64,000 bases of DNA, taken from positions 558,001-622,000 of the forward strand of contig JACATO010000598.1 in the NCBI GenBank assembly GCA_018389105.1, read 5' to 3'. The notes under the pieces were generated by a model. That model did not search any database, was not told where the DNA came from, and saw only the letters and a program-made list of their open reading frames with translations. The stretch's first letter is position 1. Each line of letters opens with the position of its first letter. The position numbers were made by a program, and so were the translations under genes. Shown here piece by piece: positions 6,159 to 51,450 of the stretch. Origin of the DNA: Nautilus pompilius. Its lineage: Eukaryota; Mollusca; Cephalopoda; Nautilida; Nautilidae.

Positions 6159-6348
6159 GAAAAGGGTGTTGCAGCATTAAGGATATGCAACTAAATTACT
6201 GATGATTATCAGCATTGGATCAGACTTCTCATCTTACTCAAGTGATTTCTTGTTTTTTTTTTTATTTTACAAATGACTAATTTTTTTTCCTGTAAATACT
6301 GGTTTACAGTCTTGTGAAAAAAAGAGATGTTTTGAGTTTCCAGAAATC

Positions 6349-8097
6349 ATGGAAGATGATAAAGATTGTTGGTCAGTAATTTCTGGGAAAAAAACTGAGC
6401 AGAGAATCGCTTCAAGAAGATCTTTGAGACAGAGTAAAAAAGCAGCTGCAAAGAATTCCATTTCAGATAATCCAGCTCCTGGGCTTGTTTTGAATAATTC
6501 TGGTAAAACTGCAGTTCCAGATTCTTCACCAACTGGCAATCAGAAGCAAATAACTTCTTGTTCTTCACCAAAGAAAGATGGAACTGTACTCTTAGTTCCT
6601 GTGCAGATTGACCGGGACATTAAGCTGGTTCCAGTCAGGCAAAAGGCAACCACACCCATGGTTTATTCAGTGAAGATGAAAGACGAAACACAAATGCAGC
6701 CAGTATGCTTGAGCCCATCTCTGAATGGAGACGTTCTGAACAAAGTTGTGTATGTACCTGAAAACTCAGCAGACAGTCTAGCTGCTGCACTGCTAAATAA
6801 ACGTAAAATGAAACGCTCCCTGGAAGCTAAAGAACTGCTGAAAAAATTGAAAACTGAGGAAAAGAACCAATCAAATAATAGTGACAGCATAGATGAATGC
6901 TTATACTGCAACTGTATCCATGATAAAGAAGAAGACTGTCTGTACATTTTCCCCAAACACCAAGTCTGTGATAGTGAACCAGAACCTTTGCTATCAGTGC
7001 CATGTTCTATAGCATCATTACCGACTTGCCTGACTTTGGTCAATAGTCCTACTGGCCAAAAAATAGTGGTGAGCACCGAAAACATTCCAGCATGGACACA
7101 GTTTGGTCCTGTTGTTGGAAAGCATTTAGAATTCTATAGTCTGGACTGCATACCATTAGAACAGATTTGGATCATAGAGCATCCCAAAAATCAGGATGGT
7201 TATATTTGTACATACAGTGAAGCTGAAGATAACTGGTGTCGGTTCTTGCGGCTTTCTGTGGAACAATATGAGTGCAATCTGACAGCTGTTTACAAAGACA
7301 ATTCCATTTATCTGATTTCTACCAAACATATTGAACAGGGCAACGAACTGATTTACTGCGTTCCTTTCATGATAACATTGGAGTCACAATCATTTCTTGA
7401 TGCATATTTCACTTTTAAATGTCCCACATGTCACCAGAGCTTGGGTGATCCTGAAAACTTCCTAAAACATGTGCGCCTGTACCATCGAAGGGGATTCCAC
7501 CAAGTGCATTGTGTGTGCAAATACTGTGATGCGCAGTTTGACAGTTTCAAAGATTTGTGTGCGCATGATAAGAAAGAACACGGAGGATATGGAGCATTTA
7601 CTTGCCATTTTTGCAATCGAAATTATCCTGGAAAATCACAACTCCGTAAGCACTTTAAACTGGTTCATGAAGAGTCCTCTGCCGGTACAATTGCCTGTAA
7701 AGTATGCAAGAAGGAATTTTGCAACTCCGACAGACTGAAGAACCACATGTACAGGGTGCATACAGATCTCAGCTTAGGCTGCAACTTCTGTGAGAAAACG
7801 TTTAAAAACCGCCAGTCCTTGAACCGGCACAAGTTGGTTCATACAGATATTTATCAGTACACATGCGATCGATGTGGAAAGATGTTCAGAGAAGCTGCAA
7901 ACCTCAAAGTTCATTTACTGACTCATTCCAAAGTGAAGCCCTTTGGATGTGCTGAGACAGACTGCTCTGCAGCTTTCACAACAAAGCAGTGCTTGCAGCA
8001 GCATTACATGAAAGTCCACGAGTACACCAGAGAATCTATGCCTGAAATTATGCGTAAAATTCCATTTACTGTAGAAGCATACAGTGGGCCTGATTAG
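6349..8097 (+). CDS. PR-domain zinc-finger protein (PRDM family), 582 aa
   Basis: Likely nuclear transcription regulator. The coding sequence lies in one exon whose acceptor is at 6157-6158 (tttcttcag), so the upstream exon is untranslated. ATG at 6349 is the first start in the frame. Parts in order: a basic, Ser-rich N-terminus; a Lys/Leu-rich helix (about 146-172); a zinc knuckle C184, C187, C197, H204; a PR (SET-related) domain at about 218-345, with TQFGPVVGK, EAEDNWCRFLRL and GNELIYC; and seven C2H2 fingers (first cysteines near 358, 390, 419, 450, 478, 506 and 534). The last finger has a C-x4-C spacing. Knuckle plus PR plus fingers is the layout of PRDM4/10/15-type proteins. The WY pair common at the end of the PR fold is not seen (IYCVPF instead), so methyltransferase activity is doubtful. 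The exact subfamily is not settled. Confidence 0.9.
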   Translation: MEDDKDCWSVISGKKTEQRIASRRSLRQSKKAAAKNSISDNPAPGLVLNNSGKTAVPDSSPTGNQKQITSCSSPKKDGTVLLVPVQIDRDIKLVPVRQKATTPMVYSVKMKDETQMQPVCLSPSLNGDVLNKVVYVPENSADSLAAALLNKRKMKRSLEAKELLKKLKTEEKNQSNNSDSIDECLYCNCIHDKEEDCLYIFPKHQVCDSEPEPLLSVPCSIASLPTCLTLVNSPTGQKIVVSTENIPAWTQFGPVVGKHLEFYSLDCIPLEQIWIIEHPKNQDGYICTYSEAEDNWCRFLRLSVEQYECNLTAVYKDNSIYLISTKHIEQGNELIYCVPFMITLESQSFLDAYFTFKCPTCHQSLGDPENFLKHVRLYHRRGFHQVHCVCKYCDAQFDSFKDLCAHDKKEHGGYGAFTCHFCNRNYPGKSQLRKHFKLVHEESSAGTIACKVCKKEFCNSDRLKNHMYRVHTDLSLGCNFCEKTFKNRQSLNRHKLVHTDIYQYTCDRCGKMFREAANLKVHLLTHSKVKPFGCAETDCSAAFTTKQCLQQHYMKVHEYTRESMPEIMRKIPFTVEAYSGPD

Positions 8098-11419: not shown

Positions 11420-11797
11420 AAACATCTTGTTTTTCAATGATGAACTAAAATATCATTTAATAGTTTCTGGGTTTAAAAGTCCTGGCAGCATCTGTACTAT
11501 TCGTGAGCGCTTTTCAATGTATAGGATGATGCGCATGGAGTTTGGAGGGGGTTAACATGGAGATTCCAAAATGGCACGGAATATAATTTGACATTCCGAC
11601 AATAAACGATAGCACTTGGGGAGTCGACCGTCGTGTTCTGAAGACAGTGTGGACCTGGAGCCCGATAAACCCCTATTACGGTAGAATTTTTTTAAAAAAC
11701 GAGGAATGTAGAAGAGCTCGGCGTCTGCGAGGGCGTGCCGGCCGGCTTTCCGTTATCGGATCCATTTCGCAATCTTGTAGGACGTTTGGCCAACAAG

Positions 11798-12718
11798 ATG
11801 GGAGAGGATTACCACAAAATCCTGAGGATAAGTGGGCGGGCCACTCACGAGGACGTGAAAAGGGCCTACCGAAAACTGGCTCGCGAGTACCACCCGGACA
11901 AGAACAAGTCGGTGGAGGCCGAAGAGAAATTCAAAGAAATTGCTAAAGCTTACGAGGTACTGAGCGCCAGGAAGGAACGCCGCCATGTGTCCAAGAGACA
12001 CTGTCGCAGGGTCAGAGCCGAGATTCTTCTGTTTCGGGCCCACTGTCGGCTGGACAACATGAACAAAATGCTGGACGCCGTGTATGAGGCATTTTTAAAA
12101 TGTATTCAACCCTCAACGAGGATGTTCGCCGGTCTTCGAGGGAACTTCGCGCGCCGACCAGCCGACCCCGTCCATTTTCTGCCCGTCTCCCTCGAAGAGG
12201 TGTATTACGGGTGTGTCAAAAGGCTGAGAATCACCAATACGGTGATGGACGTGTCCGGGTGCATCAGTGAGAAGAAAAAGGTGCTGGACGTGGAAATTAA
12301 GCGGGGCTGCCAAATGCAAACAAAGATAGTATTCCCAGGGGCAGGTAACCAGATTGGGTTCGCGGCGCCGTCTGACATTATCGTTATCGTCAAAATTAAG
12401 GAGCACCCCCTGTTCACTCGGTCGGGCAACGACTTGCGATATAAGGTCAAGCTGACTTTAATCGAGTCTTTGTACGGACGGAATCCTATCGAAGTGCCAA
12501 CCATCACCGGTGAAAGCTTTGTGCTGGAGAGGGACAAGATGATCAAGCCGTCTACCATCGGCAGGATCCGGGGGAAAGGCCTTCCCTATCTCCATCAACC
12601 CTCGAAGCGAGGCGACCTCATCTTGGAGTTTGATGTGAGGATTCCAGAGAATTTTACAGATTTAGTGAACGAAATTCTGTCAATACTTCACCATAACAGA
12701 TGCAATACTGTTTTATAA
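11798..12718 (+). CDS. Intronless DnaJ subfamily B (Hsp40) co-chaperone, 306 aa
   Basis: Delivers client proteins to Hsp70 and stimulates its ATPase. The ATG at 11798 (MGEDYHKIL) fits the MGxDYYxxL start of the DNAJB family; the frame stays open upstream but with no earlier ATG in it. The J domain spans residues 1-65, with YHPDKNK holding the HPD motif. The C-terminal substrate-binding region runs from about 135 to 290 (VSLEEVYYGCVKRLRI, KRGDLILEFDV). There are no zinc-finger CxxCxGxG repeats, so it is not type I. Unusually, the Gly/Phe-rich linker is replaced by a basic segment rich in Arg, Cys and His (ERRHVSKRHCRR). No introns and a higher GC content than the flanks suggest a retrogene or a fast-evolving tissue-specific paralogue. 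The frame is intact. Confidence 0.9.
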   Translation: MGEDYHKILRISGRATHEDVKRAYRKLAREYHPDKNKSVEAEEKFKEIAKAYEVLSARKERRHVSKRHCRRVRAEILLFRAHCRLDNMNKMLDAVYEAFLKCIQPSTRMFAGLRGNFARRPADPVHFLPVSLEEVYYGCVKRLRITNTVMDVSGCISEKKKVLDVEIKRGCQMQTKIVFPGAGNQIGFAAPSDIIVIVKIKEHPLFTRSGNDLRYKVKLTLIESLYGRNPIEVPTITGESFVLERDKMIKPSTIGRIRGKGLPYLHQPSKRGDLILEFDVRIPENFTDLVNEILSILHHNRCNTVL

Positions 12719-43722: not shown

Positions 43723-45816
43723 CTGATAATCATGAAAAGAAAGAAAGAATATTCTGTATACAAATCATAATATATTATTTCAATTTACAATAGTGTCTAA
43801 AATTTCCTTTTAATTTATGATGTTATTCTGTACAAGAGACAAAAGCAAAATATTATGTAGATAAGTGAATTTTCAATTTTCTTACGCATTTTTAAATGTG
43901 TTAAATCATATTACGATATGCCTAACGTCCTCTTTTATACTTGAGGAATTAGTGCTGCATTTCTTTCTCGTCATCACCCTAATTCTTCAGTAGTGAATGG
44001 AAAAAAAATAATTGAGAATGTCTCTGTCATGTTAATGAGAGACTCAATCTTCCACAACATGAAGATAAACTAATTAACCTTACCTGAACCGACAGAGAAA
44101 AGAAAATGGAAAGACTTCAAGAGGCGGTAGAAGGCAAAGTGTTTTCCTAGAAGTCAAAACCTTTTTGCTATAAACTCCTTTCTTGAAATCCATGAAAAGT
44201 TGCTACATGACTTATTTCCATTGCTAATCTGATAAACAAAAGTAGACCAGTGTCTAAAATAGTTGTTAAATCAATAATATTGCTCAGGTGTCCACTTGGT
44301 AATCAATGCCTTTCATGAAAACCTGTACTCTATTATAATTAACATTTAATAAAGCAAAAAAGCTCCTCTATGGAATTGCAATAGTAAACTGTTTCCTCTT
44401 TGCGAAAACAGAATGTTATTGTAACATAGGTGAAATTGTGTGATGCCTCACATTTCTCTGAGGGTAAGATATTTTCACTAGAAATCTCCTGAGGTATGGG
44501 TTCTATCTTTACCTACTTAATGCACTTATCTACTACCTATATCTGTACTTGAAACAAGTACAAGCAGTTTCTTTAACGACTAGCCTTGAACTCATTTCTC
44601 TGCTATAGCATAATGTACATTAAAACTTCCAAATATTAACATCCTTCTTATAGAGGCCAATAATAGGTTATAAATAACTTGATAGAGAAATATTAAAATA
44701 TGGTTAAAAGATTTAAATTGTTAACCTAAGCTTATTAATTTCATGATGATTTTAAATCTCTCAGAAAAAAATCATGAGCAAATGGAAATGTTTTTGTCAT
44801 CGGATGATACAGTGGAATTCTCTTTAGGCTCATGTTGAGATTTTCATTATAAACCATTCTGTTTCAAGTCAAGCTAAACATGTCTAAATTATTTATTTCT
44901 TGTTATGAATCTATAGCCCTATACTTGGAAAGGCTACAATTATCATAGGATTAACAACAAATCTTGTAATTTTTAAGGTTTATGGAAACCAATGTTGGGT
45001 CAAATAAATTTTAAACACAATAGGGTTCAATAACATAAAAAGAACAAGCAGTTATGGAGTTTCAACTTTTAACTTGCCTGAAACGTATTTCTCCAACATG
45101 AATATGCAAATATTTCTGAATTACAAGACCTTACCTTTAAATCTAAACAAATCAACCATAGTTTTACAAAGCGGGTCTTCATTTAAACTAAAAACATTTG
45201 AATGGAATTTTTTTTCCTGTGCAATTCTGAAACACAAAGGTGTTCTAATTTTTTTTTCCAAAATAGTGAAATTTTTATTTTTACTGACTGAACCGAAACA
45301 CGTACATCCTTTCTTCTTCATTTTAATATTGAGGCTTTTCAGAACTCAGCAGTTTGTTTATATAATGGCAGTCATCTAACAAGCAGGTGTTAAGAGAATT
45401 TATTGTTAAATTTTTTTCAGATTTCCATTAAAAAGAATCATTTTCATTGTTTCATTGTTGCACAATATCACAGAACTACTGCAACACAGAGGCTAGAACA
45501 TGTAAGATGTGAACTGATGATCACGATCCATGTGCTACTTGAATATGATCAACTATTTGGTTTTCAGTCCCAGTTCTTATTTAACCATGGATAACTTTAG
45601 AATTTCCAAGAGAACAGTTTAAGAGCGGTTTTGCCTGCAAACCAGTAGTGTACATCTGCAACAGCAATGCATGCTGTGAAGACAAGTAGTACTTATATAG
45701 TCTGGCACCACTCTTAGACCAACAGCAATGCATTCTGGGAGAGTCAAAATATTCTGAAAACTCCATTAAGATTGGAAACACAATGGCCAAGCTGGTTCAC
45801 CAAGCAAGTTATGGTA
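43723..45816. other. Region upstream of the first SLC22 coding exon
   Basis: AT-rich. Probably the first intron of the SLC22 gene, because coding exon 1 is preceded by an acceptor (gattatcag). Open frames at 45.1-45.8 kb lack recognisable domains. Confidence 0.4.
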
Positions 45817-46130
45817 GTGTGTGTGTGTGAGTGTGTGAGTGAGTGTGTGTGAGTGTGTGAGTGAGTGAGAGTGTGTGAGTGAGTGAGAGTGTGTGTGTGA
45901 GTGAGTGTGAGTGAGAGTGTGTGAGTGTGTGAGTGAGTGAGAGTGTAAGAGTGAGTGAGTGAGAGTGTAAGTGTGAGTGAGTGTGTGTGTGTGTGTGTGA
46001 GTGAGAGTGTGCGAGAGTGTAAGAGTGAGTGAGTGAGAGTGTGAGAGAGTGTAAGAGTGTGTGAGTGAGTGTTGTGTGTGAGTGAGTGAGTGACAGAGTG
46101 TGTGTGAGTGAGTGTGTGTGTGTGTGTGTG
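45817..46130. repeat. GTGA/GT simple-sequence repeat, about 314 bp
   Basis: A run of GTGTGTGAGTGAG-type motifs with GAGA and GTAAGA interruptions. The long Thr/His/Ser reading frame on the opposite strand is purely repeat-derived. Confidence 0.95.
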
Positions 46131-46299
46131 CAGATCTCACACTACTCTCTGTCATACCCATCGACAAATGTAACATACATATGCACACATGTATATCCAT
46201 AATACACACACATACATGCATGCAACACAAGTAACACACACATATACGCACGTGCATATACAGGTAACAAGTACATCCAAAATACACGTGACACAACAG

Positions 46300-48067
46300 A
46301 CCTCGTGCAACGCAGCACACACGCACAATCCACACACGTGAACATCACGTGCGCACGACCCGTAGCCCCGAGACTCGCTGAGTGGCGCGAGTACTCTAAC
46401 CAGACCCCCGTGAGCAGCACGGAGTGTGACGAGCCTCCCCCCCCCCCCCAAACCCCCGCTGTCCCTCCTCTTCTCTCCCCGCCGTAAAACTTTATTCCTC
46501 TTTTCAGTCAGGGGTCCGACTGCTACAGATGCGGCTGGAATGTCCTGGGTTCCCGACTCCACCCCGCCCGGCCCCTCGCCCCGACACTTCGTGGCGACTT
46601 ATACAACAGACGACGACGAGAAAAGGCTGCCGGAAAGTGATGTTCGGCGGTAATTAAAGGAAAGGATAAACAAACTGACGGCGACTTGAGTATTACCTGA
46701 CTGACAGCGATGACGTCTGAACACCGAAGGACAGAAGCATCAATATATAGATATAGATATATATATACTGTATATATGTGTGCACGAGCGGAAGAGGGGC
46801 GGAGCTCGTGCGCGTATACTTATATGGAAGCGCGTAGGTAGGAGAGTCCATGTGGCTGGGAGAGGATGGGGTTACAGGCAGGTACGTTCGGCGGTGAGCC
46901 CCGGGCTGAGTTCACTCACCCGGGATACGATGCTAATTATAGGCGCAAAGGGCAGACAAAACAAATTCTGGCAGCCACCGCGAATATCTACGGGTGTAGG
47001 GCAGCCACCGGGGAGACACCGGAATTCCAGGAACTTTTAACGTGTGGAATGCAGGGAGGGAGCTCCCCTAGTTCACATCTTTCCTCGTCCTTCCGGAACA
47101 GCCGCGGTTCGTGACCCGTGAAGAGCGGCACCAATTCTCCCTCTTCGCCCTGGACGCGGACCCGGTCATCCTCGCATGATTACAAACGGCGTGACGAAGG
47201 TGCGGTGGGAGCCCCTAAAAAAGAGAGGGGGGAGAGAGAGAGAGAAGGGCGTTCTGTCCTTACTGTTCTGCGGGTAATCTGAACCGTCTCGTCGCTGGGA
47301 GCGCGTCTAGTACACGGGTTCATTGAACTGTTAGACCTCCTTATCTGGTTCCTGGCCTCCTCCAGCCTCTACATTCTAGATATCCGACTCCTGCCCTCCC
47401 CTCCACCACAGAGATATCGCAAATAGCTTATACGACACAGCTGAAATACCGCCGGCACCTGTACGTTCGTAACGGTCCATCGGCTCTCCCAGGTGCGTCG
47501 AGCAGCGAGTTGGGACTGACCGCGCACTATATACGTCACGCTCTGTAAGACCCGGCCGACGGCTAATACTCGTATAAAACAGAATCAATGGCGGTACCCA
47601 CTCGGGGGCCGGAGTTGGAAAGCTGGAGGCCGTGTGAGAGCGGAAGGGAAGAGAGAGAGACGAGCTTTCCCTCGTCGATCAATTCACATCGAACATTTCT
47701 CCCACCCCGGCACCCGAAAAAGAACGAGTGCTCGAAACGAGCTGGTGCCCGCCCCTAACCCGGCGAAGTCGGTTGACATCCTCTCTTAATTTACTCCGCG
47801 AGTGAAAACTCGTGGTTTTGTCTGTTCTCTCGTAAATCCCGATACCCTTCAGTGGGTGTGGGCGCGAAGCTACCGAGAACCTCTATGGTTGAGGGCCTGC
47901 GTTCGAATCCCGGTCGAGGCGAGCTCGGCGTGGTCTCTTCTTCGCCGCCCTTCTTCTCGCGACTGCAAACGAAGGTTTTCTGGCTGGACGTGGCAGCTCG
48001 ACAAGTTACCTTTAAAACAGCCGACTTCCTACTAAAAGTAACTTCACCAATAACAAAAGCCAAATTA
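46300..48067. promoter_or_regulatory. CpG-rich block, possible SLC22 promoter region
   Basis: CG dinucleotides are frequent (for example acgtgcgcacgacccgtagccccg and cggcggtgagccccggg), in sharp contrast to the AT-rich flanks. TATA-like alternation occurs at 46740-46780. It lies 2.6 kb or more upstream of the first SLC22 coding exon, which needs an upstream untranslated exon, so it could be that promoter; the link is inferred. A poly-C run is at about 46437-46450. The reading frames lack known domains. Confidence 0.35.
47870..47945 (+). mobile_element. tRNA-like fragment, probably part of a SINE
   Basis: TATGGTTGAGGGCCTGCG followed by GTTCGAATCCCGGTC is a good B box with preceding anticodon-arm-like sequence. 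The A-box side is poor and no closed acceptor stem is seen, so it is not a complete tRNA gene. GC-rich, within the CpG-rich block. Confidence 0.4.
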
Positions 48068-49428
48068 CACTGGTCAACAAAATTAAATGTATTACACTCA
48101 TTATGAATGCAAACCAACTTTTTTAGACTAATTTTTCATGCTGATTTCAGAATTTCACTCCATTTGTATGCAGCACGTATCAGTTTTTCAGTAGATACAG
48201 GCAAATATTTACATATTTGTATATATGAAATCACTAACGTAATAAATAAGGACATATTATTTTTAGAAGGTAAATGAGTTTATTGAGTTAAAAATCATCA
48301 CTATCATTCTACAAAGAGTAAATACACAAAAAATGGGTCAGGCAAAGTTAGAACAACAGAGTTAGAAACATTGTGATTTGGATTTCCTGCGGTGTTCCTG
48401 ATCTGGTTGACCACGGTAAAGTGTCCGGCAATAATCAGCCAGTACACTGTCATTCCCGAAGCCTTGGTACCGTTTCTCCATAGCTCTAATGTCCTGGTGA
48501 AATCTTTCGCCATGTTCATCAGACACTGCTCCAAGGTTATCTGCGAAGAAATCCAGATGGGAGTCCAAGAAGTGAACTTTCAGTGACATGCGACAACCCA
48601 TTGTTGAGTAACATTTCAGAAGATTCTCGATGCCATCCTTGTAGTCCATTGCCTTCTTGTTGCCCAAGAAATTCTCACAGATCCAATTGAAAGCATTCCA
48701 GGCAGGCAGTTCCAGTTCATCCAGTGTTGTCTTGAAGTTGACATCTTTGAGTACTTCTCTAATTTGGGGTCCAACAAAGATACCCTCTTTCAACTTCGCC
48801 TGTGTGATTTTGGGTAACTTTTCTACAATATACTCAAACCCTCTGGCATTTCTCTTCCCTAGTGTCTTTACAAACTGTTTCATCAGTCCAAGCTTTATGT
48901 GCAAAGGAGGCAATAGGACATCACACGGATCTACAAAAGGTGTATTTTTGATGCTAGACAGTCCTGGCTGGTATGATGTTCTTGTCTGCCAGTTTGATTC
49001 CGAATAATGTCTGTCAGTTGCCCGACTATCCCATAGACACAAGAAACAACAGTATTTTGTGAAACCTCCCTGCATTCCCATTAACATCAGACTAATTATG
49101 ACTGGACAATTTGAGATGTTGAAATACCTATTTCATCAGACAAAACTTGATTGCTTAATTTAAGATGATGAAATATTGCATCTGAACTATGCAGCAATGA
49201 ATAATGTAGTTTATTTTAAAGGTATGTTTCCATGATGTAAATGAAATACATGCATACACGTCATTAATTGGAATTTCTATATAATGCATGAGCTAAAACC
49301 AAAAATTTTTCTCATCTTGAAAACTGTACGTGATGTCAAAAACCTAATTGTATATTTGAAATCAGCATTAAAAACTACACTAAGTACACCTTGACATATG
49401 CTTGATGAAAAATACTTGTTGACCAGTG
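48068..49428 (-). mobile_element. 1.36-kb inverted-repeat element with a conserved reading frame, superfamily unclear
   Basis: The ends carry a perfect 13-bp inverted repeat, CACTGGTCAACAA. A second inverted match lies 50-65 bp inside each end (atgctgatttca with flanks; 48131-48152 and 49354-49375). The termini may run a few bases further (TTA before the left CAC, TTAT before the right), and no clean target duplication is visible. CACT ends recall CACTA/Chapaev-type elements, but the protein does not look like those. The element interrupts a CpG-rich region. It encloses the frame at 48362-49087 and about 340 bp of noncoding DNA on its 5' side, where more coding sequence would be expected in a longer relative. 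Confidence 0.7.
48362..49087 (-). CDS. Element-encoded protein, 241 aa, function unknown (transposon-associated)
   Basis: Uninterrupted frame within the inverted-repeat element. It starts in the middle of a family domain: YCCFLCLWDSRATDRHY with a Cys pair, then VLLPPLHIKLGLMKQFVKTL, KLKEGIFVGPQIREVL, NFLGNKKAMDYK, then VHFLDSHLDFFADNLGAVSD and GERFHQDIRAMEKRYQG, ending RRKSKSQCF. I recall many unannotated arthropod and mollusc proteins sharing the PPLHIKLGLMK and GERFHQDI blocks; they occur in multiple copies, as for transposon products. The acidic residues in these blocks would suit an RNase H-like nuclease fold, but this is inference. The N-terminal part of the family seems absent, so the copy may be non-autonomous. 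Confidence 0.7.
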   Translation of the reverse strand: MLMGMQGGFTKYCCFLCLWDSRATDRHYSESNWQTRTSYQPGLSSIKNTPFVDPCDVLLPPLHIKLGLMKQFVKTLGKRNARGFEYIVEKLPKITQAKLKEGIFVGPQIREVLKDVNFKTTLDELELPAWNAFNWICENFLGNKKAMDYKDGIENLLKCYSTMGCRMSLKVHFLDSHLDFFADNLGAVSDEHGERFHQDIRAMEKRYQGFGNDSVLADYCRTLYRGQPDQEHRRKSKSQCF

Positions 49429-51450
49429 ATAATCCGACCGACCTGTACTAATAGCGTTTAAAAAAAAAAAAGAATAATAAAAGATTCTCAAGACATCATG
49501 GATAAAGGTGGAACGTAACAGGTTCATCCAAGCGGAGATCGGTTCTCTTTGGTACAGGTGTTCGGCGTAGTAACCACCCGCGACAAATTAGGTCGGATTA
49601 ACGAAGCGGGACCGGGACAACACCTGACGGGTACTCAATCCCTTTCTTTGCCCGTTGTTGATTCATCTTGGTTATTTTCAATTCCGGTTTTTAAATGAGG
49701 TGGGCCTATACCAACTTTACAGCAGAATCAGAGCTTAACAAAAAAAACGATCGAGACCATTTTAATTTCGGCACATAAGCGGTGGAAAGTAATACACGTG
49801 GTGCGTCATGGGTTCAATAACTCGTGAGATCCATCGGGTGAAACATTTAAAAACAAAGTGTGGAGGTAGAATCGAACAGCCTGGGCTTTATTATTAGCAT
49901 GGGGCGAGCTTAGATCTGTTTCTCCCTACCATTCAGAGCCAATCGGATCCCATCCATCCGACTGGCGGAGCGGGCCGGGTCGACTGCTGGGCGATTGATT
50001 GCCAGACCGTCCGGCGGTCTAACCAAACCAGCAGCCGGTCTGAAGCCACGCTTGAATAGCGCCGGGTTTCCGCGAACGAGCGTCCGCGTCCAGCGTCGGT
50101 TACTGGCGAGGACGGACGGACGTGTCCACACGTCGGAAAACTTCCTACCCGGCAAAGGACGAGGTACGCGCGGGGACCCGCTGTCCTGCTCTCCATCGAA
50201 ACCCTCACTCACGAGTGCATACCTTGTGAAGCTCCAGTGGTTCGATACGGGCTGAAACCTCTGGCGGAAACGGCTGCGGAGTCTTCCTGTCTGGCGACGC
50301 ATAGGTGATCACCTCGAGACGGGGCCGGGTCACGTTCTCGAAACCTGTTGGGAAAAACTAGAGGCTTATGGGAAAATATGAGGTAACGTTCCAACGGCCG
50401 AGGTTGGGCGACTCGCTGGACCCCTTACACACCCCATTCACTCAATGGCCGTGTTAGTACGGGGTACAGAAGCAGCGTTGCCTTCAATATTAAAAAAATT
50501 ATAGTGAACAAAAGTATTTTTATTTACCTTTAATATCGTGATTATTGTGGTCTTTGGGGGGAGGGAGGCTGGCTGGTGGACGGCGGAGGTTAACCCTTTC
50601 GCGAAAGGGAATGGGGAGGGGCCTTCTTATCTTCAGAAAGACCCCCCCGTATCTTCAGCGGTGGTTAGTGGGGCAGCTCAAGATTGATGACCCCTTAGTC
50701 TTCTTTCGGAGGTCTTCCTGAAGCCGCAATAAGACTGCGGGGTCCGGGTGTGAGCCAAGGTCGCCAACTCTCAGTTTTCTGCTGCCGGTACCAAATCCGC
50801 CTGTTTTCTTCACCGGGTCGAGTGTTTTTCACCTTCCCGGAAATGCAAAAGAAAGTCGAGCACACGGCATAATTCCGAATATCTTACTCTAAAATGGCTG
50901 CCGGTTGGACGCGCTTGGGGCGCCACCACGCTGTCTGTGGTGGCGGAAGATAGAACACGGCAGCCAGGGAAGACTGTACTTGAAAGGTACTCGGCAATCG
51001 GCAGCTGACTGCTTAACTTCGAAATAGTCTTTTTTTGTTGTTGTTGCGCCGTTGGAAATATGAATTCTTCGGAAATAACCGATGATAGGTTCGTAGGCTT
51101 TCTTTTACCAGCATTTCCATGTCGTTGTTGTTTTTTAAATATGTTCGTCAAAAGCAGCATCGAACTGACTCAGCAATTTCAAGATTCACACACGGGGGAA
51201 CCGACAGTTTCACCATCTCCTCCTCTGAAGCCAAGACCAGAAACGTTAGCCAACCCCCCCCGGACCTTTGGTTTATGTCCGGAAACTCTGACGAGGGACA
51301 CTACTCTCGTGCTCTACAACGCAAACTGTAGCAAGTTTCCAGTTCTTAAATCCAGAATCACTGAATGCCGTTGCACCAGATGCACAGTAAAATCCCATTT
51401 TTTTTTCGAAATAGCTCGGGGCCGAATTGATTCCGTATAAAAGGGTTTTT
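49429..51450. other. CpG-rich block, second half
   Basis: GC- and CpG-rich DNA (strongest 49.9-50.4 kb and 50.5-51.0 kb), perhaps once continuous with 46.3-48.07 kb before the 1.36-kb element inserted. Open frames such as 49910-50302 (minus) and 51060-51440 (plus) have no recognisable domain and look like a by-product of low stop density. It may be a promoter region, a decayed repeat or a GC-rich satellite fragment. Confidence 0.35.

Follow-up and report, generated by a model that had tools for sequence, protein, structure and literature searches.

Transposons of the Chapaev3 group, which includes Merrow, Garfield and Conan, are characterized in their published description by 5'-CAC and GTG-3' termini, a TWA target site duplication (TSD) at sites lying between A and T, and a transposase that carries a C(2)C, an LH and an H(4)H motif (PMC4079192). 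In the same paper, Garfield_BM is given as an element of 2,289 bp with a transposase of 556 aa; Garfield and Merrow are said to have two exons, while most other Chapaev3 elements appear to be single-exon (PMC4079192). Shortened forms are also described there: GarfieldN1_BM and ConanN1/N2_AC are said to derive directly from a full-length Chapaev transposon by internal deletion and are called MITEs, which are generally shorter than 600 bp (468 bp in GarfieldN1_BM) (PMC4079192). Two Chapaev3 families are named in a table of PMC3630058.

The element analyzed here occupies positions 48068-49428 of a 64,000-nucleotide stretch of the Nautilus pompilius genome (GCA_018389105.1, contig JACATO010000598.1, positions 558,001 to 622,000), hereafter the window. 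Compared with the Chapaev3 description, the nautilus family to which it belongs is similar to the group in its CAC/GTG termini, its A-TWA-T insertion sites and the three transposase motifs, and it is close to Garfield_BM in the length of both the full-length element (2.29-2.39 kb) and the transposase (about 554 aa). Deletion derivatives are found beside full-length copies in both. Differences concern the coding sequence, which is a single and uninterrupted frame in the nautilus family and is split into two exons in Garfield and Merrow, and the size of the shortened form: the class found in the window is an internal-deletion derivative, as are GarfieldN1_BM and ConanN1/N2_AC, but is about 1.37 kb long and has kept 241 codons. 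Judging from its sequence, the window element is very probably a non-autonomous, internal-deletion copy of a Chapaev3-like transposon (CMC superfamily).

Structure and abundance of the element

The element is delimited by terminal inverted repeats (TIRs) of 13 bp, with CACTGGTCAACAA as the left arm (48068-48080, plus strand) and a right arm at 49416-49428 (minus strand) that is complementary to it at 13 of 13 positions. Comparison of inverted words revealed two subterminal repeats inside the TIRs, whose left members, ATTTTTCAT and ATGCTGATTTCA, together span 48131-48149 on the plus strand. The 12-nt word ATGCTGATTTCA is located at 48138-48149 and, on the minus strand, at 49357-49368, and the 9-nt word ATTTTTCAT at 48131-48139 and, again on the minus strand, at 49405-49413. 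A shared word as long as ATGCTGATTTCA was obtained in 7 of 2000 mononucleotide shuffles, and ATGCTGATTTCA itself was present, without mismatches, near both ends in 29 of the 43 both-ended copies described below. The perfect TIRs and the subterminal repeats had been reported in the earlier note, as had an ATG-to-stop frame of 241 codons with the blocks PPLHIKLGLMK and GERFHQDI (48362-49087, minus strand), and all of these features were recovered in the present analysis.

The host genome (727,640,739 bases in 2558 contigs) was searched at the DNA and protein levels. When the window element was used as the DNA query, the best 40 of 1426 candidates were scored, the window copy among them, and all 40 were 95-100% identical to the query over 1359 or more of its 1361 bases; since every scored match extends this far, the ends of the element are not a product of chance. 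Exact matches to TWA followed by CACTGGTCAACAA amounted to 1788 (903 forward and 885 reverse), with 0 for the reversed control, so the multiple copies with shared ends that the earlier note had proposed as a check do exist. In the protein search, all of the 150 matches scored, out of 6601 candidates, were positive, with frames of up to 634 codons. The stretch 48068-49428 is a real transposable element, and the possibility of a host gene was rejected because its ends recur in hundreds of copies.

Full-length copies and internal deletion

Longer copies with the same ends, another check named in the earlier note, were also found. Thirteen of them with both ends (L039-L047 and L049-L052) measured 2294-2390 bp, and among the 14 long loci both ends were recognizable within 2 mismatches in 13 and perfect in 9. 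The transposase is encoded in a single frame in the full-length form; the longest ATG frames of the 13 long copies comprised 550-565 aa in seven, 617 aa in one (an in-frame extension upstream) and 436-503 aa in five. Residues are numbered hereafter according to a product of 554 aa, the exact length of the frame in three long copies.

The window element aligned to positions 1-1029 and 2046-2389 of the long copy L042, and is missing the 1016 bp in between (L042 positions 1030-2045), with CAT common to both sides of the joint. This 3-bp microhomology is located at 49085-49087 (CAT on the plus strand), exactly where the 241-codon frame has its ATG. The deletion removes residues 1-313, together with the original start codon, and leaves residues 314-554. 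The frame at 48362-49087 (minus strand), which had been regarded as intact, is the C-terminal remnant of a longer transposase. The sequence of the deletion joint had 149 exact matches in the host genome, compared with 511 for the sequence that runs through this point without a deletion, and 0 for the control in both cases. The N-terminal portion missing in the window copy was matched at 150 of 150 scored places, out of 2991 candidates, with 82-100% identity.

These data are consistent with a scenario in which a single ancestor lost about 1 kb at the 3-bp microhomology, and the shortened form was then multiplied in trans, presumably by the enzyme of full-length relatives, to bring the joint to 149 places. 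These relatives encode a putative DDE-type transposase of about 554 aa, of which the 241-codon frame represents the tail, deprived of the original start, the cysteine-rich N-terminus and two aspartates. Because the start, the N-terminus and both aspartates are missing, the remnant should not encode an active transposase.

Additional deletion classes, each with its own breakpoints, were observed among the copies. One of them (1194-1852) comprised L013, L014, L021, L022 and L037, and another (1113-1701) comprised L016, L025 and L029; the remaining ones were represented by L024, by L034, by L036, and by L040 with L029. Three breakpoint pairs recurred in more than one copy among these classes.

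Target site duplications and empty sites

Target sites were tallied in 43 copies, which resulted from subtracting 9 duplicates and L048 (no left end) from a total of 53 loci. An exact 3-bp TSD was present in 30 of the 43 (17 TTA, 12 TAA and 1 TAT); thus, 29 of the 30 exact TSDs were TTA or TAA, in agreement with the constant target duplication that the earlier note had put forward as supporting evidence, and 28 of the 30 were flanked by A and T. The 13 copies with no exact TSD included that of the window, in which the left flank (TTA, 48065-48067, preceded by A) and the right flank (ATA, 49429-49431) agree at two of three bases. Transposons of the hAT type generate an 8-bp TSD and were ruled out, as the duplication here is of 3 bp.

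Empty sites, which had likewise been suggested as a check, were found for the insertion of L004. The flanks of this copy joined with one TAA were matched through the junction by 40 of 40 scored sequences, out of 1240 candidates, and a single TAA was present at the five empty sites that were read at base level (5/5). A second and weaker case was that of L006, with 76% identity in a local search. For the window copy, no full second copy of its 300-bp flanks was detected in the host genome: the left flank matched itself and two partial sequences (40 and 75 bases), and the right flank matched only itself.

The copy L004 (G000:C658, around 136269-137629) sits inside another high-copy repeat, for which 40 of 40 scored matches, out of 1240 candidates, were at 84-96% identity.

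Transposase motifs and superfamily assignment

The candidate catalytic residues read from the sequence of the 554-aa product, a putative DDE triad, were D254, D308 and E507. Both aspartates fall within the deleted residues 1-313, and the codon for E507, a putative catalytic Glu in the context DEHGERFH, is located at 48506-48508 (minus strand) of the window. The C(2)C motif (C327-x2-C330, CFLC, residues 327-330; 49037-49048, minus strand) is found 19 residues past D308, the same step that separates the second Asp of RAG1 from its C(2)C pair. The LH motif corresponds to L375-H376 in PPLH (residues 373-376; 48899-48910, minus strand), and the candidate H(4)H motif to H485-x4-H490 in HFLDSH (residues 485-490; 48557-48574, minus strand), with a second candidate H-x4-H in HGERFH (residues 505-510 in full-length numbering). 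The C(2)C, LH and H(4)H residues were unchanged in the six rows of one alignment (6/6), all of them at least 93% identical. L052 departs from the candidate set, with N in place of D254.

The element can be classed as Chapaev3-like because its CAC/GTG ends, its TWA TSD (29 of 30 exact TSDs among the 43 copies, and an empty site with one TAA), inserted between A and T in 28 of the 30, and the C327/C330, L375/H376 and H485/H490 motifs fit the description of this group. It is an assignment by motifs, termini and TSD, likened to that published description. The expectation of the earlier note that the ends and the protein together would permit placement in a superfamily was borne out, and its label of unclassified is not supported, all the Chapaev3 hallmarks that are readable from sequence being present.

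Database searches with the 241-aa remnant, the full-length proteins and a six-row profile returned nothing significant in Pfam, NCBIfam or PDB sequences, and the best matches were at chance level (e.g. FtsA). Three full-length proteins matched no transposase family in Pfam, the hits being non-significant for L043 (zf-AD, E 0.053) and L039 (YolD, E 0.16), and none being obtained for L044. Similarly, nothing reached the gathering threshold in Rfam for the window, no relatives were confirmed in viral contigs and prokaryote genomes, either by protein search or with the degenerate pattern DEHGERFHQ(D/E), and four protein motif strings had no match in the literature searched. The AlphaFold model of the remnant alone had a mean pLDDT of 35.8.

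Two other superfamily placements were considered in the light of these results. EnSpm/CACTA, another branch of CMC, has ends of the type CACT[A/G] and a 3-bp TSD, and the nautilus element, whose ends read CACTG and whose duplication is of 3 bp, is compatible with both traits. However, CACTA elements are not known to show a TWA preference, their TSD having no fixed sequence, whereas 28 of the 30 exact TSDs found here are TWA between A and T, as stated for Chapaev3 in its description, and none of the three full-length proteins matched a Pfam transposase family; membership in this branch is considered unlikely. PIF/Harbinger elements do duplicate TWA, but the combination of CAC/GTG ends with the C(2)C, LH and H(4)H set points away from them, and so does the lack of significant Pfam matches for the three full-length proteins, given that Harbinger transposases have a Pfam family of their own (Harbinger-type DDE). 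An element of this type can be given hardly any probability.

The full-length transposase would be expected to bind to both kinds of repeat, terminal and subterminal, to cut the element out and to integrate it at A-TWA-T sites, where TWA is duplicated. According to the earlier note, the blocks PPLHIKLGLMK and GERFHQDI occur in unannotated, multi-copy arthropod and mollusc proteins; such proteins would thereby be tied to complete ends and a fixed TSD, and could then be named Chapaev3-like transposases. Apart from that, the nautilus family provides a typical pair of full-length element and deletion derivative, of curatorial value.

Youth and selection in the remnant frame

The open frame had been interpreted in the earlier note as a sign that the element was young or under selection, and of these two options the first was upheld and the second was not. 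The whole-element distance from the class majority was 0.07-1.31% for the other 12 copies of the deletion class, and 2.28% for the window copy. Relative to the class majority, the 13 class copies had 75 replacements and 27 silent changes, that is, 1.05 times the spectrum-matched neutral expectation, and 1 stop was observed vs. 5.8 expected. For the same codons, the ratio was 0.87 in 20 copies longer than 2280 bp (3 stops observed vs. 9.1 expected) and 0.80 in ten other deletion copies (2 vs. 3.6). The sample is partly biased, as retrieval by protein score favours open frames: L019, L020, L027, L028 and L038, among the 13, were fetched in this way (L019, L020 and L038 were also in the DNA-ranked list), and this bias may account for the shortage of stops. 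Of the 40 DNA-ranked copies, 25 were among the protein matches listed, and 6 of these 25 carried one stop each.

The window copy had the highest number of changes of the 13 copies, with 13 replacements and 6 silent changes relative to the majority of the other 12. In a neutral simulation of these 19 changes, the frame was still open in 6531 of 20000 runs.

A frame that is functional in its own right, for example as a truncated, transposition-repressing transposase kept by selection, would be in line with the lack of indels and stops in 11 of the 13 class copies, with the low number of stops already mentioned, and with the position of the start codon, exactly at the deletion joint. Against this explanation stand the replacement/silent ratio, which is at the neutral expectation, the replacements in the window copy, W211G and W221R among them, the third or so of the neutral simulations that remained open, the ten ATGs located upstream within the element, and the stops in 6 of the 25 DNA-ranked copies among the protein matches listed; it is therefore regarded as very unlikely. 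By analogy, the 1.37-kb class might make a C-terminal transposase fragment that represses the parent element in trans, with an effect like that of KP, a derivative of the P element that is built the other way round, yet this would be an extremely improbable outcome. Selection on the frame was rejected on the basis of the replacement/silent ratio and the simulations, with the shortage of stops put down, tentatively, to the way the copies were sampled. Youth is sufficient to explain the open frame, which most likely reflects the recent origin of the copy and not maintenance by selection.

Other features of the window

Three further open stretches were recorded in the window. The one at 45766-46344 (minus strand; 192 codons) has a translation consisting mostly of a simple repeat (TH/SL) and is probably not a gene. 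At 11696-12718 (plus strand), 340 codons combine a DnaJ with a DnaJ_C domain in a single frame; the stretch might be a retrocopy, although this is a guess. Finally, the stretch at 6277-8097 (plus strand; 606 codons) contains a PR domain (Pfam PRDM2_PR, 5.2e-15) together with zinc fingers of the C2H2 type, and is a PRDM-like host gene exon.
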